Of a DNA stretch of 33,530 bases, positions 6,943 through 13,680 are shown piece after piece (the stretch's first letter is position 1; each line of letters starts with the position of its first letter). Position numbers and translations under genes: made by a program. Source of the DNA: a virus. The stretch lies in IMG/VR virus record IMGVR_UViG_3300034107_000316, positions 1 to 33,530 of that record; one strand, written 5' to 3'. Under the pieces are notes generated by a model that saw only the letters and a program-made list of their open reading frames with translations, searched no databases and was not told the origin of the DNA.

Positions 6943-7205
6943 AACATATTAAATTTTTTCCAATCGTTTGTATTCCATTGTCTAACCGATTTATTCCAAA
7001 GTTCGTGTTTCACATCCTTGCGCAAGGTGTCTAAAATTTCGTTTATATTTAAAGTTCGTTTTATTGGTTCCAATTTTATTTCTTTTGCTTTTACAATTAT
7101 CCCTTTGCTTTCTAAATATTTTATTTTTCTGTATGCTGAAAGTTTCTCTTTGTTTTTATGGTAATTTTTCAATGATATTTCAGCAAGTTCTTTTTTGGTT
7201 TTCAT
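6936..7205 (-). CDS. Hypothetical basic protein, 89 aa
   Basis: A lysine-rich helical protein. The N-terminal half (ELAEISLKNYHKNKEKLSAY) could bind nucleic acid, and the C-terminus is Trp-rich (ELWNKSVRQWNTNDWKKF). Its start overlaps the stop of the VRR-NUC nuclease gene as ATGA, so the two are probably translated together. This suggests, without proof, a partner role in DNA processing or packaging. No named family was recognised. Confidence 0.65.
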   Translation of the reverse strand: MKTKKELAEISLKNYHKNKEKLSAYRKIKYLESKGIIVKAKEIKLEPIKRTLNINEILDTLRKDVKHELWNKSVRQWNTNDWKKFNMLC

Positions 7206-7513
7206 AATATCGATTTGAATTGTTCTAGTGATCTGATTAAATAATATTCGTGGTTTAAATTTTCAATTGATTTTTGGAATTTCTTTTGTACTTCGCTTTG
7301 AACTCCAATTTCTGTTTTTAATTCAACAAAAAATATTTTTTCTGGAGTTACTACTATCAAATCTGAAACACCCGCCATGGTTCCAGTTGCTTTAAATACT
7401 TTATTTTTATACGTTGATTCGTTTGCTACTGAAAAAATCAAACCTTTGCCGTGTATTTGGTAGTTATTTCTATAAAAAACTACGATTTCGTTTTGCAATT
7501 GTGCCTCTGTCAT
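7202..7513 (-). CDS. VRR-NUC domain nuclease
   Basis: A 103-residue single-domain PD-(D/E)xK nuclease. The VRR-NUC pattern is visible: an N-terminal acidic/Gln helix (EAQLQNEIV), the turn GTMAGVSDL with the metal ligand D51, the catalytic pair in FFVELKTE (E64, K66), and a following glutamine (Q72 or Q76). Free-standing VRR-NUC proteins are common in phages, where they are thought to cut DNA branches or nicks during replication, recombination or packaging. It is the first gene after the 257-bp repeat region and next to the replication genes. Its start codon directly abuts the outermost repeat of that region. Confidence 0.88.
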   Translation of the reverse strand: MTEAQLQNEIVVFYRNNYQIHGKGLIFSVANESTYKNKVFKATGTMAGVSDLIVVTPEKIFFVELKTEIGVQSEVQKKFQKSIENLNHEYYLIRSLEQFKSIL

Positions 7514-7528
7514 AATTTGTAATGTTTT
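7513..7528 (+). repeat. Outer repeat arm (left)
   Basis: TAATTTGTAATGTTTT. Its reverse complement is at 7751-7766. The first 13 bases recur directly at 7566-7578. This arm touches the start codon of the VRR-NUC gene (7513-7511). Confidence 0.85.
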
Positions 7529-7530
7529 TT

Positions 7531-7541
7531 ATTACACTTAA
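7531..7541 (+). repeat. Middle repeat arm (left)
   Basis: ATTACACTTAA, with its exact reverse complement at 7726-7736. It is also part of a local near-palindrome (ACACTTAAAGTGT, 7534-7546) that could bind a dimeric protein. Confidence 0.75.
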
Positions 7542-7567
7542 AGTGTTAGTTTTTAATTATTTATGTA

Positions 7568-7583
7568 ATTTGTAATGTGTAAT
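7568..7583 (+). repeat. Inner repeat arm (left)
   Basis: ATTTGTAATGTGTAAT, with its exact 16-base reverse complement at 7683-7698. The 99 bases between the two arms are almost entirely A and T. Confidence 0.85.
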
Positions 7584-7682
7584 ATATTATTTTAAACTTA
7601 TATAGATATAAATATAAAAATTCATTAATGTGTATATTATATAAAAATGAAATGTATTATATAGTTTATAGTAATATTATAG

Positions 7683-7698
7683 ATTACACATTACAAAT
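7683..7698 (-). repeat. Inner repeat arm (right)
   Basis: ATTACACATTACAAAT, the exact reverse complement of 7568-7583. Confidence 0.85.
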
Positions 7699-7725
7699 AG
7701 GGTTTAAGTCAATGGTAGTAAGGTT

Positions 7726-7736
7726 TTAAGTGTAAT
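7726..7736 (-). repeat. Middle repeat arm (right)
   Basis: TTAAGTGTAAT, the exact reverse complement of 7531-7541. Confidence 0.75.
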
Positions 7737-7750
7737 ATTTTTTTTATTAC

Positions 7751-7766
7751 AAAACATTACAAATTA
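7751..7766 (-). repeat. Outer repeat arm (right)
   Basis: AAAACATTACAAATTA, the exact reverse complement of 7513-7528. It ends 4 bases from the stop codon of the primase-helicase gene. Confidence 0.85.
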
Positions 7767-7770
7767 CATT

Positions 7771-9954
7771 TTAAAACGGTACTTCGTTTGAAATTGGAGC
7801 GTGTTCTGGCTTTAAAAATAGCTCAACTCCAACTTTAACCGTTCCATTTACTCGATATGTTTTGTAATCTAAATTATTTTTTATAAAAATATCTTTTACA
7901 TCGTATTTTGAAACGTTAATTGAAGTAAAAATATTTAGATAGTTTAAAATTTCTCCCTGATTCATTATCCTTCTTTCGCTTTTTTCTTCTGTTTCTTTGA
8001 TTGAAAACGTATTAAAAAATAATTCTTCAACAGGTAAAACTTCTAAATTTACATTTGTATTAGCTGCTAAAAAATCAATGTCCTCACAATTATAAATTTT
8101 CCAATCAAAATCAGAACGCCATAAACTGAACGCTTCACGCCATAAACTATCCGTATCAATTAAAATCATTTTATCATAATCAATAGAAAATACATTTATA
8201 GGCAAAATCCTACGATTTCCTGTAACATCTTTTAAAATTGATATATCGTTACTTGTTCCGCATAAAGACGCCTTACGTTTCATTTTTGAATAGAAAGCTG
8301 AATAAGGCAAACGGATGTCAATTTGATTTGCGTCTGCTATTTTTTTAAAGTCTTTCACATCTTTTGTAGCCAAGCCTCCAAATTCATCGTCTAAAACAAC
8401 AAGCCCCTTAACTAGGTTGTAAATACTATCCTTATCCTTTGAATCGATTTTATGTTCTATTAAGTATTTTGATAGCTCTTTAGGCATTAAATTACGAAAA
8501 AACGAAGTCTTGCCAGTCCCTTGCTTTTTTCCACATAAAACAAGCGTTAAAGGGCTTACTTTAGTTTCGTGAGTTGGACTACACCAGTTGTGAACGGAAC
8601 CAACTATCCATTTTTTAAACGCCCATTTATTAAATTCTGTTTTAGGTTCTATACAATCAACATATTTTTCAATAGTTCTAGCTTCAAAAGTTTTAAATTT
8701 AAAAAATTCATTTAGTGCGTTATAGTTTTGCGTGGCTTCTGAATTTATCATATCTCTTACATCGGATTTATTTACATTAAAATCTAGACAATTTTTAGCA
8801 GCAAAATAAATTGTATTCAGTTTTATATCGTCAAGCAAAACTCCATTTATAAAAATTTCATTCGTTATTGTATCCCGAATAGGATTAAAATTTTCAGCAA
8901 TAAACATTTTTAATTGGTTAACTTCTGTTTCGTCGTTTTCAATTCCAGCAGAATAATCAACTTTACTTTCAATTAATTGTTTAATTAAATTTTCATCTGG
9001 TGCATCTAATTTTAATACTTCGGTAATGTGTTTTTTTACGCTTTCAATTGTGGGAGTACCTTGCGCTTTTTGTGCTGCAACCGTTGTAATTGTTTTCTTT
9101 GTTTTTTCGCTATAAATTTCTATTCCTTCCTGTTTAACGTAATGGTAAAAAGTAGCAATAGTTACACTTCCAGATTTACAAAAGTTTTTATAATGTTTTT
9201 CAATATCTTTAGGATTATATTTAGACCCATTTTGGCAAATAGATTTAAAATAATTTAATCCATTTTCTCCAAATTGAGAACCAATAGCAAATCCAATATT
9301 TACATATCGTGAGTAGTCATCTTGACAAAGGTCAATAGTAGAAATTTTATCTAAAATTATACTAAAATCATCTTGAACAAAAATAAAATTTTCTTTTTTA
9401 ATTTTATCTATTTTTGATTTTGCAATATATTTTTTTGCTTTATCATTATAAAATAAATATGGATCATAACTAAAATAACGTAAACGATTTTTATTCTTAC
9501 AACTTGGATCGATAGTTAGATTAAAATTATCCCAATAGTATTGACCTAATTCATTGAAACTTTCAAGGAATTTATTAGGATTAATTTTTACAAATATACA
9601 AACCCCATCACCGCCAAAACTTCTATGCGAGATAAAAGTATATTTATCCAAATTAATTTTAGTAATAGTTTCAATATCAACCGTGTCGTCAATATCAATT
9701 ACTATTAACCCATTCATTTGTTCAATATTACTTTCGATTTTAGAGCCTTGATTCATGATTGCAGAACCTGTTATACAAGGCATTTGAGATTTGAACTCTT
9801 TATACTTTTGCTTATCATTTTTAACCGCCCGTGCTCCTAAAATTATATCCTGATATTTTCCATTTTTTACACTATCTATGTAAAATTGTAAATCAATATC
9901 AATTTTGTTTTTGTCTTGAACCGTTTTATAGCTACTAAATTTTATTTGTTCCAT
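7771..9954 (-). CDS. Primase-helicase, BT4734-like N-terminal domain fused to a VirE-type ATPase
   Basis: A 727-residue replication protein. The N-terminal part (about 1-180) resembles the BT4734/BF3469-like primase-type domain of Bacteroidota elements, with the acidic motif IVIDIDDT (residues 84-91) followed by a conserved SFGGDGV turn. A middle helical part follows. The C-terminal ATPase has Walker A GKKQGTGKT (475-483), Walker B LVVLDDEF (518-525), a sensor-like CGTSND (565-570) and an arginine-finger-like TGNRR (578-582), as in the virulence-associated E (VirE) family of phage helicases. It should open and prime the replication origin. It overlaps the SF2 helicase gene by 20 bases and ends beside the repeat region at 7513-7770. 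Confidence 0.92.
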   Translation of the reverse strand: MEQIKFSSYKTVQDKNKIDIDLQFYIDSVKNGKYQDIILGARAVKNDKQKYKEFKSQMPCITGSAIMNQGSKIESNIEQMNGLIVIDIDDTVDIETITKINLDKYTFISHRSFGGDGVCIFVKINPNKFLESFNELGQYYWDNFNLTIDPSCKNKNRLRYFSYDPYLFYNDKAKKYIAKSKIDKIKKENFIFVQDDFSIILDKISTIDLCQDDYSRYVNIGFAIGSQFGENGLNYFKSICQNGSKYNPKDIEKHYKNFCKSGSVTIATFYHYVKQEGIEIYSEKTKKTITTVAAQKAQGTPTIESVKKHITEVLKLDAPDENLIKQLIESKVDYSAGIENDETEVNQLKMFIAENFNPIRDTITNEIFINGVLLDDIKLNTIYFAAKNCLDFNVNKSDVRDMINSEATQNYNALNEFFKFKTFEARTIEKYVDCIEPKTEFNKWAFKKWIVGSVHNWCSPTHETKVSPLTLVLCGKKQGTGKTSFFRNLMPKELSKYLIEHKIDSKDKDSIYNLVKGLVVLDDEFGGLATKDVKDFKKIADANQIDIRLPYSAFYSKMKRKASLCGTSNDISILKDVTGNRRILPINVFSIDYDKMILIDTDSLWREAFSLWRSDFDWKIYNCEDIDFLAANTNVNLEVLPVEELFFNTFSIKETEEKSERRIMNQGEILNYLNIFTSINVSKYDVKDIFIKNNLDYKTYRVNGTVKVGVELFLKPEHAPISNEVPF

Positions 9955-11476
9955 ATTTTTTTAAATAAGTTTCGGTTAATATTTTTTGAGTAAATGTATC
10001 ATATTTCATGTGCTTACCGTCTTTAAGCATTGAGGATAAAATTTTAAAATAAATGGGTCGTAAATGTATTCTAAATTTTTCTTTAAATTGTCTATTTCTA
10101 TGATAATTAAAAGTTTCTTCTTTTATTTCCTTTGATTTTAAAAAATGAATCCAAGCTATTGAAATGCTTTTTAGCGCTTCATATTTTGTCGATCCTTTAG
10201 AAATGTGAAAATCCAAATTAAATTTAGGAATAGGAATTTCAGAAGCTTGAGTAAATAATTCAAATTCTTTTTTTTCTCGTTCTTCTCCTGGTTCTTTTTC
10301 TGGAACTTCTTCGCCACAATTAGGACAAATTTTTTCACTTTCTAAAAATGTAAATCCGCAAAAGTTGCATTCTTGTATGCTTTCGACAATATCCTTAATA
10401 TTTTTATCTGAAAATATTTTTTTCCAATCACGATCAAAACTAAAAACTTGGTGTTCTTCGTTATTGTTTCCACCATCTACTAATAAAAAGTAAGGCTTAT
10501 CGGTTTTTTTTGTTGGTCTAGCTCCACGCCCCGCAATTTGAATCCATAACGATAGGCTTTTAGTTGCTCTTGCCATTATTATAGCTTCTACATCACAAAC
10601 ATCAAAACCCTTTGTAAAACAACCTGTATTTATTAAAATTGCATCTGGTGTATTTTTAAACCAATCTACTATATCGGTTCTATTTTCTCTGTCGCTTTTA
10701 GAATCGTATATTTTTACATTTTTATCACTAAATAATTCTTGGTAAACTAAATTAGTGGAGCAACTACTTGTGAAAATCATTGTTTTTTTTCCTTCGCAAT
10801 ATTTTTCGTAGGTAAGTTTTAAAGATTTTTGATAGTTTTCAGCTTGAAATGTAGTTTCCATAGATTTAGAAGTGTACTCACCGCTCGAATCAGTTTTTAA
10901 ACTTAACTTATCAAACTCAAAAAAAACATTTTGTTCTGGTATTAAATAACCGTTATCCATTAACCATTTAATAGGTTTGCCACATACAATATCGTCGTAC
11001 ACATCGGACAAAGTTTTTTGAGCCGTTTGATTATCATTAATTTTATAACGCCCCATTCTTACGGGTGTTGCTGTAAATCCAATAATTCGAGCATCTTTTA
11101 AAAATGGTATTAGCTTATCAAATATAGCCACATGACATTCATCTATTACGCAAAGATTAAAATTTGGAAGTTTAGAGCGTCGGTTCCATAAACTTTGAAC
11201 CATCGCCACTATAATTTTATTTTGTGGAAAAATTTTATTTCCAGCTAAAACACATCCGACATCTAATCCTTGTTTTTTAAACGTTTCTACGGTTTGATTT
11301 ACCAAATCAATACTATCTACTAGAATTAAAGTTTTAGTGTCTAATTGACTAACTAACTCGGTAAAAATAACTGTTTTCCCTCCACCTGTCGAGAGCTGAA
11401 CACATAGTTTTTGTGCTTTGTTTTGCAGGATTTCATCCAATAATTCTTGTTGGTAAGGTCTTAATGTTTTTTTCAT
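9935..11476 (-). CDS. DEAD/DEAH-type SF2 helicase with C-terminal zinc ribbon
   Basis: A 513-residue helicase. It has a Q-motif-like start (LRPYQQELLDEI), Walker A LSTGGGKT (28-35), the DECH box (112-115), motif III-like GFTATP (133-138) and motif VI QIAGRGARPTKK in the second RecA-like domain. After these comes a four-cysteine zinc ribbon (CNFCGFTF ... CPNCGEE). I chose the ATG at 11476-11474 over an in-frame GTG at 11494-11492. The GTG lies inside one arm of the leader structure, while the ATG stands 11 bases beyond it. The protein probably unwinds DNA in replication with the primase-helicase that follows and overlaps it. Confidence 0.92.
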   Translation of the reverse strand: MKKTLRPYQQELLDEILQNKAQKLCVQLSTGGGKTVIFTELVSQLDTKTLILVDSIDLVNQTVETFKKQGLDVGCVLAGNKIFPQNKIIVAMVQSLWNRRSKLPNFNLCVIDECHVAIFDKLIPFLKDARIIGFTATPVRMGRYKINDNQTAQKTLSDVYDDIVCGKPIKWLMDNGYLIPEQNVFFEFDKLSLKTDSSGEYTSKSMETTFQAENYQKSLKLTYEKYCEGKKTMIFTSSCSTNLVYQELFSDKNVKIYDSKSDRENRTDIVDWFKNTPDAILINTGCFTKGFDVCDVEAIIMARATKSLSLWIQIAGRGARPTKKTDKPYFLLVDGGNNNEEHQVFSFDRDWKKIFSDKNIKDIVESIQECNFCGFTFLESEKICPNCGEEVPEKEPGEEREKKEFELFTQASEIPIPKFNLDFHISKGSTKYEALKSISIAWIHFLKSKEIKEETFNYHRNRQFKEKFRIHLRPIYFKILSSMLKDGKHMKYDTFTQKILTETYLKKYGTNKI

Positions 11477-11487
11477 TGTAATAAAAT

Positions 11488-11564
11488 AGCCCACAATTTC
11501 AGTCGGGCAGGACTTACTTTTGTGAGCTTATTTAATATGTTTTTAATAATAAACGAATCTGCCC
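11488..11564 (-). ncRNA. Structured 5' leader 1 (pseudoknot), before the SF2 helicase
   Basis: In RNA order: arm A GGGCAG (11564-11559), a 30-nt AU-rich linker, arm B AGCUCACAA (11528-11520), 5 nt, stem AGUC (11514-11511), apical loop CUGCCC (11510-11505), stem GACU (11504-11501), 4 nt, arm B' UUGUGGGCU (11496-11488). B pairs with B' over 9 bp with one G-U. The six-base loop is fully complementary to arm A, giving a loop-to-5'-end pseudoknot. B' ends 11 nt before the helicase ATG, inside a ribosome footprint. The same plan recurs in leaders 2 and 3. Function is inferred. Confidence 0.72.
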
Positions 11565-12497: not shown

Positions 12498-12956
12498 TTA
12501 ATTAATAATATGATATTTTTCTTTGTTTTTTAAATAACATTTTTCAGCTTCAATTTCTGTTTCAAAAATACCTAAATGCTTCTTTTTGTAATTAACCATT
12601 ATGTATGCTATAAATTTTTTTGAACGTTTGCAAAATGAATATCCTTTTATGTTTGATAAATTCATAGCGTTTTGACTTTTTGTAACACTGCGTAAATTTT
12701 TTATTTTGTTATTAGTTTTATCTCTATCTATGTGGTCTATAAAATCAACAATTTGAATATATTTAACGAACCATGCAAATTGATGTGCGTATAAATAATA
12801 AACATTTCTTTCTTTATTTCTTAAAGTTAACATCAAATACCCGTTTTTAGTTTTCTTTGATAAAACCTTACCGCTTGGAGTAAATACATATCCATTTGTA
12901 AAATCATAAGTAAATCCTAATTTTTCAGCTAATAAACACTTTTCTAATCTAGTCAT
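12498..12956 (-). CDS. HNH endonuclease with AP2-like DNA-binding C-terminus (homing-type)
   Basis: A 152-residue protein. An HNH-type core spans about residues 45-100: LYAHQFAWFVKY, then VDFIDHIDRDKTNNKIKNLR with the D-H-x-D-x-x-x-x-N-N and N-L-R elements. The last 45 residues (KGYSFCKRSKKFIAYI, KKHLGIFETEIEAE) look like an AP2-type DNA-binding repeat, as in many free-standing phage homing endonucleases. It is the first gene after leader 2 and stands between that leader and the DUF3127 gene. It may therefore have inserted there and displaced the gene that the leader first served. Confidence 0.85.
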   Translation of the reverse strand: MTRLEKCLLAEKLGFTYDFTNGYVFTPSGKVLSKKTKNGYLMLTLRNKERNVYYLYAHQFAWFVKYIQIVDFIDHIDRDKTNNKIKNLRSVTKSQNAMNLSNIKGYSFCKRSKKFIAYIMVNYKKKHLGIFETEIEAEKCYLKNKEKYHIIN

Positions 12957-13065: not shown

Positions 13066-13680
13066 TTACCATTGTTGATTTGTTTTAATTTTGTTAATAT
13101 ACTCTAGTTTAATTTCGATTACTTCCTGTAAACGTTCTTTTATTTTTTCAATCATAACCTCGTCACGTTCAACGATAATTTCATGATAGTATTCTGTTCC
13201 CTCGTGAACTAAATAGTTGAAAAAATACGCCTTGTTTCTATCTGTGGATAACATTTGCATTTGCATCTGTGCGTAATACTTTGGATCAACTTCATTTGTA
13301 GCTACCAATTTAAAAAATGTACTCGATTTCGGACATTTAATTTCTAGTATTGCATTGTCTGAAACTAATCCATCTGGAGACGCTCCCGAGTGTTCGCAAT
13401 TATCAAAGAAACCGCAGTTAGTTACTTCTAAAAACTCCAAAGATTTCAATTTTTTAAACTTTGCAAAGGCTAGGGGTTCTGTATCAATACCATTTTGCAT
13501 ATCAAAGCTAATATAGTTTTCTTCAAACTCTCCGTAAAGTGATTCGATAGCTTTATCAATAGCATAATTTTTACCAGTTTCACCAATTCCACGAACTCCA
13601 AGTATTTTAATAATTTCGGAAGCTGTAAATTTTCCGTAGCGTTGCTGTTTCCAACTGTCTATCCTTTGTAATTGTTCCAT
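13066..13680 (-). CDS. YqaJ-type (lambda Exo-like) recombination exonuclease
   Basis: A 204-residue PD-(D/E)xK exonuclease. The N-terminal WKQQRYGKFTASE segment, E68 (DTEPLAF), the catalytic SPDGLV aspartate (D103) and LEIKCP with E113 and K115, followed by YYAQMQMQML, are the usual YqaJ/lambda Exo motifs. Such enzymes degrade the 5' strand of double-stranded DNA ends to give 3' tails for a single-strand annealing protein. No annealing protein of a known family (RecT, Erf, Redbeta, Rad52-like) is visible nearby. The 170-aa and 321-aa proteins of the same unit are the candidates for that job. Confidence 0.92.
   Translation of the reverse strand: MEQLQRIDSWKQQRYGKFTASEIIKILGVRGIGETGKNYAIDKAIESLYGEFEENYISFDMQNGIDTEPLAFAKFKKLKSLEFLEVTNCGFFDNCEHSGASPDGLVSDNAILEIKCPKSSTFFKLVATNEVDPKYYAQMQMQMLSTDRNKAYFFNYLVHEGTEYYHEIIVERDEVMIEKIKERLQEVIEIKLEYINKIKTNQQW

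Follow-up and report, generated by a model that had tools for sequence, protein, structure and literature searches.

A candidate iteron origin beside a phage primase-helicase gene, with a repeated word that co-varies with the wing of the primase-helicase C-terminal domain

A repeat array between the primase-helicase and VRR-NUC genes

The stretch of DNA analysed here (the window) comprises 33,530 nucleotides of IMG/VR virus record IMGVR_UViG_3300034107_000316, a virus contig whose nearest named relatives are Flavobacterium phages of the genus Muminvirus. It contains a 257-bp gap between two minus-strand genes, lying downstream of the stop of a primase-helicase gene (7771) and upstream of the start of a VRR-NUC-type nuclease gene (7513) (Table 1). 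According to Pfam and structure prediction, the primase-helicase joins BT4734_N and PriCT-2 domains, a VapE P-loop domain and a C-terminal winged helix in one chain. The same replication/recombination region of the window holds an HNH endonuclease gene (12498-12956) and a YqaJ-type recombinase gene (13066-13680).

Table 1. Features of the array and its surroundings, in window coordinates.
Feature	Position	Strand	Remark
VRR-NUC-type nuclease gene	7202..7513	-	Flanks array; linkage control, no co-variation
Putative replication origin / iteron array	7514..7770	.	Entire gap, primase-helicase stop to VRR-NUC start
Iteron TGTAAT, outer cluster, VRR-NUC side	7518..7523	+	
Iteron ATTACA, outer cluster, VRR-NUC side	7531..7536	-	
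Inner cluster, VRR-NUC side	7564..7583	+	TGTAAT x3 at 7564, 7571, 7578
A/T core between inner clusters	7584..7682	.	Presumed unwinding element
Inner cluster, primase side	7683..7695	-	ATTACA x2 at 7683, 7690
Iteron TGTAAT, outer cluster, primase side	7731..7736	+	Inverted relative to neighbours
Outer cluster, primase side	7746..7768	-	ATTACA x3 at 7746, 7756, 7763
Primase-helicase (VapE/PriCT-2/BT4734-type), 727 aa	7771..9954	-	Proposed initiator
C-terminal winged-helix domain	7774..8040	-	Primase-helicase residues 639-727
Wing codons 699-708	7831..7860	-	Co-vary with iteron word (701 with base 0, 708 with base 5)
Second helicase (ResIII/Helicase_C)	9935..11494	-	Directly upstream of primase-helicase

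The gap has a GC content of 16% and contains 11 copies of the word TGTAAT, where dinucleotide shuffles give 1.4 (maximum 7); in 1000 shuffles, the commonest 6-mer of any kind never reached 11. This amounts to 43 copies per kb, compared with 1.9 per kb across the remainder of the window, in which the densest other 250 bp holds 4. No comparable TGTAAT cluster, as a candidate second (crr-like) iteron locus, was found elsewhere in the window, a contig that is possibly incomplete.

The gap was originally singled out for its nested, symmetric inverted repeats, and these are real: 21 exact inverted pairs of at least 11 bases are present, versus 0.4 in dinucleotide shuffles, and the centres of the nested pairs fall at 7633-7640. 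The original prediction gave arm lengths of 16, 11 and 16 bases. Both values of 16 stand, for the outer arms (7513-7528/7751-7766; 22 nt at 91%) and the inner arms (7568-7583/7683-7698; 27 nt at 89%), while the middle pair (7530-7542/7725-7737) is 13 exact bases long rather than 11. The outer arms had also been described as touching the flanking start and stop codons; the right arm ends 5 bp from the primase-helicase stop codon. What was overlooked is that the nested pairs are a by-product of one repeated word, TGTAAT, placed near-symmetrically around an A/T core, and that this word switches between phages. A terminator or cruciform as the main function of the repeats was considered and rejected, in agreement with the earlier view that this is not a simple terminator, because the arms are copies of one word that also occurs as direct repeats, and because relatives retain the sites yet alter the word. 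The suggestion of a large operator between early and late halves of the genome is not supported, as the flanking genes are co-oriented and both of replication type.

Conserved layout, switching word and variable wing

A scan of IMG/VR with the primase yielded 64 loci, to which a profile scan added distant loci at 46-52% identity and a search of genome contigs added one close new locus (L080), which fits the pattern, together with two distant loci. In nearly all of these loci, a gap of some 190-310 bp separates the primase stop from a VRR-NUC-like gene, and the gap, its size and its layout are common to ~70 relatives at 46-98% primase identity. In the layout that is kept, the word stands in direct copies next to the primase stop and then in an inverted copy; after a spacer comes a pair pointing toward the A/T core, with its mirror image on the other side of the core. 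Across many lineages the inner sites are mostly 100-115 bp apart, a distance that would be near ten helical turns.

The word itself differs between phages, and it does so at all sites in concert. While the window has TGTAAT, the words in relatives include RGTTACC, TGTTACC, TGTAACC, RGTAACC, GGTAAT, GGTAAG, TGTTCCC, TGTTTCA, TGTCATT, CACTACC and TTTTACC. On a tree of primase residues 21-640, with word classes assigned by reading the arrays, at least 31 changes of class are required among 59 loci.

Several arrays depart from this uniformity. Two words apparently occur at once in L021 (GGTAAT and GGTAAG), L129 (TGTAAT and TGTAACC) and L030, and the mixed-word arrays of L021 and L129 may be intermediates of a switch. 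One clade (L132, L136, L137 and L138) has a degenerate-looking array with the word TGTTTCA at 4-6 sites. An element loosely like TAACTAATTGATAATCAATAAGTTAA recurs between the iteron clusters whatever the word, for example in the window spacers 7537-7563 and 7696-7730, though no clean motif was resolved from it.

To relate the word to the primase, we asked how well distances between words follow those between primases, the latter taken in sliding windows and with overall primase divergence removed, across 43 distinct loci. The best predictor of the word along the 727-residue primase is the segment of residues 697-708, with a partial r of 0.66 (best window in 200 label permutations, 0.30), and the control gene VRR-NUC, on the far side of the array, gives 0.05. 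At the level of single positions, column 708 is the best of ~700 primase columns for base 5 of the word, and column 701 is the best for base 0. With words read from the arrays, Lys708 is accompanied by C at base 5 in 31 of 31 loci, and among loci lacking Lys708 a C occurs in only 4, all of which have Arg708, a residue that goes with either C or T and so forms an exception to the code. At base 0, Arg701 goes with T and Lys701 with a purine. A weaker pairing involves residue 699, where, in classes likewise read from the arrays, Leu goes with GTAACC and other residues with GTTACC, with four exceptions (Leu699 with GTTAC in L049 and L051, and Ser699 with GTAAC in L144 and L055).

Since these word classes had been assigned by reading arrays, we also ran an automatic choice of word, in which orientation was taken from the sites next to the core and 12 loci whose word has no initial GT were left out. 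Such an orientation rule matters because GTTAC and GTAAC are reverse complements of each other and are otherwise ambiguous. Under the automatic choice, T precedes GT in 26 of 29 loci with Arg701 and in 0 of 16 with Lys701, and phylogenetically independent pairs divide ~9:0 in favour of the association between residue 701 and base 0 (p ~0.004). The residue-base pairing recurs in distant lineages.

The C-terminal 89 residues of the primase-helicase are predicted by AlphaFold to form a winged helix (mean pLDDT 84), with which the full-length model agrees, and the modelled wing is a beta hairpin of residues 698-702 and 705-714. The top structural matches of this model are the DNA-binding domains of ArgR/AhrC, Fur and PadR (Z up to 6.0); these are generic, reflecting the common winged-helix fold and not a family assignment. 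It is the wing that varies, whereas the putative recognition helix (around 683-692) is conserved, which suggests that the wing determines specificity.

The cleanest natural experiment is provided by locus L007, in which the wing and both arms are replaced while the core and the rest of the primase are kept. Its primase is 98% identical to that of the window, and 7 of the 15 differences fall inside residues 699-708. At the DNA level, identity to the window within the primase gene is 96% before the wing codons, 60% in the wing and 95% after it. Across the gap, the left and right arms are each 55% identical and the core 98%, and the beginning of VRR-NUC is 95% identical. Within the core segment 7596-7658, 62 of 63 positions are identical in L007 although both arms differ.

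Proposed origin function and alternative explanations

Iteron origins are recognised by ordered copies of a short word beside an A/T-rich region, and the gap presents 11 copies of TGTAAT, a conserved layout and an A/T core. We consider it very probable that the gap is a theta-type iteron origin, the word of which is bound by the C-terminal winged helix of the adjacent primase-helicase. The co-variation of word and wing supports recognition, with physical binding inferred; that the core melts and replication begins here is deduced from the layout and from precedent. The earlier proposal of an origin with protein sites in mirror image is, as far as sequence comparison can tell, well supported: relatives keep the arm positions in the same gap though the word differs, and the repeats co-vary with the C-terminal wing of the primase-helicase.

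In the proposed mechanism, the C-terminal winged-helix domain of the primase-helicase would bind the repeated word (TGTAAT in the window) and read its bases through the wing hairpin (residues 698-714). Molecules on the inner clusters, which flank the ~100-bp A/T core, could then load two helicase rings head to head, and the loaded primase-helicase would melt the core and prime both forks. Array and wing would evolve together like a lock and its matching key, so that the word switches from phage to phage while the core and the remaining primase are kept.

The alternative that survives best, though it is unlikely, is that the primase-helicase C-terminal domain does bind the array but that replication starts elsewhere, the array instead governing copy number or incompatibility, in the manner of P4 crr, or acting as a loading site for replication that depends on recombination. 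Co-variation speaks for recognition and not for initiation, and the ori and crr of P4 share the same iterons. Nor is the site marked by GC skew, one of the checks originally proposed: neither the window nor the complete relative snusmum6-1 shows a skew break at the array, a result that neither supports nor opposes the site, since skew follows gene orientation. Against this alternative, the array is the only one of its kind in the window, and the A/T core between its clusters is the expected unwinding element, with a length that is kept among relatives.

An operator for a separate repressor or activator of VRR-NUC and downstream genes, in the manner of an immunity-type operator/repressor switch, is very improbable. 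The array does lie directly upstream of VRR-NUC, and repeated phage operators that switch with their repressor are known, but here the word is confined to one gap and co-varies with the primase wing, not with a separate gene, while VRR-NUC is without signal. Furthermore, an HMM of the C-terminal domain finds the primase alone among the genes of the window, revealing no further word-specific regulator. Finally, the wing lies ~60 bp from the array, so that the primase 3' end and the gap could be swapped together by block recombination and their correlation reflect linkage only, but this is scarcely tenable. In L007 codons 709-727 and the core are still 95-98% identical although the wing and both arms have changed; VRR-NUC gives no signal, whereas residues 699-708 give a sharp one; and the identical residue-base pairing returns in distant lineages.

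Taken as iteron origins with their initiators, these loci offer ~60 matched pairs of initiator and origin. Specificity has changed at least 31 times among them, and individual residues are paired with individual bases. This natural series makes directly testable how an initiator and all of its sites can change specificity together without an inviable intermediate.

Nuclease genes within arrays and comparison with known systems

In seven distinct relatives (L038, L049, L055, L063, L144, L149 and L155), a gene for a T5orf172 nuclease (GIY-YIG superfamily) lies 45-81 bp past the primase stop, and L058 has the same nuclease gene at a contig end. The gene is placed between the primase and most of the array in 6 of 6 relatives with a readable array, and the T5orf172 domain was confirmed by Pfam in 3 of 3 tested (L038, L049 and L155). 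The first iteron cluster, intact in snusmum6-1 (L040), is split by this gene in Muminvirus mumin6-1 (L038), which uses the same word. The C-terminus of these nucleases carries the winged-helix domain of the primase (HMM, best E 5e-16, small set); the match is weaker in L038 and L055, marginal in L144 and made by eye only in L155. Across the loci, the HMM of this domain finds it outside the primase in T5orf172 nucleases only, and in the window it detects no such nuclease gene. The residue equivalent to 701 equals that of the phage's own primase in 6 of 7 nucleases (permutation p 0.0095, with the L155 residue aligned by eye).

This nuclease is possibly an origin-directed homing nuclease. We tentatively suggest, and would put the chances at somewhat short of even, that such T5orf172 nucleases bearing the initiator's winged helix drive the switching of word and wing, by inserting into arrays with a matching word, cutting rival phages or satellites of the same word and thereby selecting matched lock-and-key changes. 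If so, Flavobacterium phages would fall into exclusion or incompatibility types according to their origin word, and these array-borne nucleases with the primase's own domain would tie the diversity of origins to conflict between phages, much as Odn does in the case of satellites.

Among known systems, the alpha protein of phage P4 fuses primase and helicase; its C-terminal domain recognises the origin, and the short iterons are the same at P4 ori and crr. The primase-helicase described here is likened to it by architecture, having primase, helicase and a C-terminal DNA-binding domain in one chain, but it has one array adjoining its gene where P4 has two separate loci. The SaPI ori is composed of two iteron sets flanking an AT-rich stretch. 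SaPI Rep proteins are self-loading helicase initiators whose C-terminal domain recognises iterons directly downstream of their own gene (PMC7581432, citing Ubeda et al. 2007), and the C-terminal domain of the related Cch2 was shown to bind its repeats (PMC7581432). Similarly, in the window and its relatives the array follows directly on the helicase gene, with the nuclease gene intervening in some relatives, and co-variation points to the C-terminal domain as the determinant of iteron specificity. The likeness is one of layout. In contrast to SaPIs, the protein here is a fused VapE-type primase-helicase of Bacteroidota tailed phages, its word switches fast and is tied to two wing residues, and some relatives have a nuclease gene in the array.

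In geminiviruses, iterons and a short variable segment of Rep (the iteron-related domain) co-vary across species while the layout is kept (PMC10653810), as do word and wing here; however, that Rep is a rolling-circle protein of ssDNA viruses with the segment in its N-terminal domain, and both protein and replication mode are unrelated. The nuclease recalls the ICP1 protein Odn, which combines a T5orf172 nuclease with a RepA-like domain, cuts the origins of satellites and selects for altered iterons (PMC8263062), and the further RepA_N-T5orf172 fusions (PMC10448857), in which T5orf172 is likewise joined to the DNA-binding domain of a replication initiator. It differs in that its domain is the winged helix of a primase-helicase and not RepA_N, its gene is inside the phage's own origin, and its target and function are putative.

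A literature search for this origin in Flavobacterium phages found nothing, and the Muminvirus paper makes no mention of iterons. Iteron origins beside a helicase or primase-helicase gene are already known, as is the co-variation of iterons with a Rep segment in geminiviruses. As far as literature searches show, what is new is that Flavobacterium phages have a family of this kind, that its words switch in concert very often while the core is preserved, that wing residues pair with bases in a simple way, and that a nuclease with the same domain lies inside the origin.
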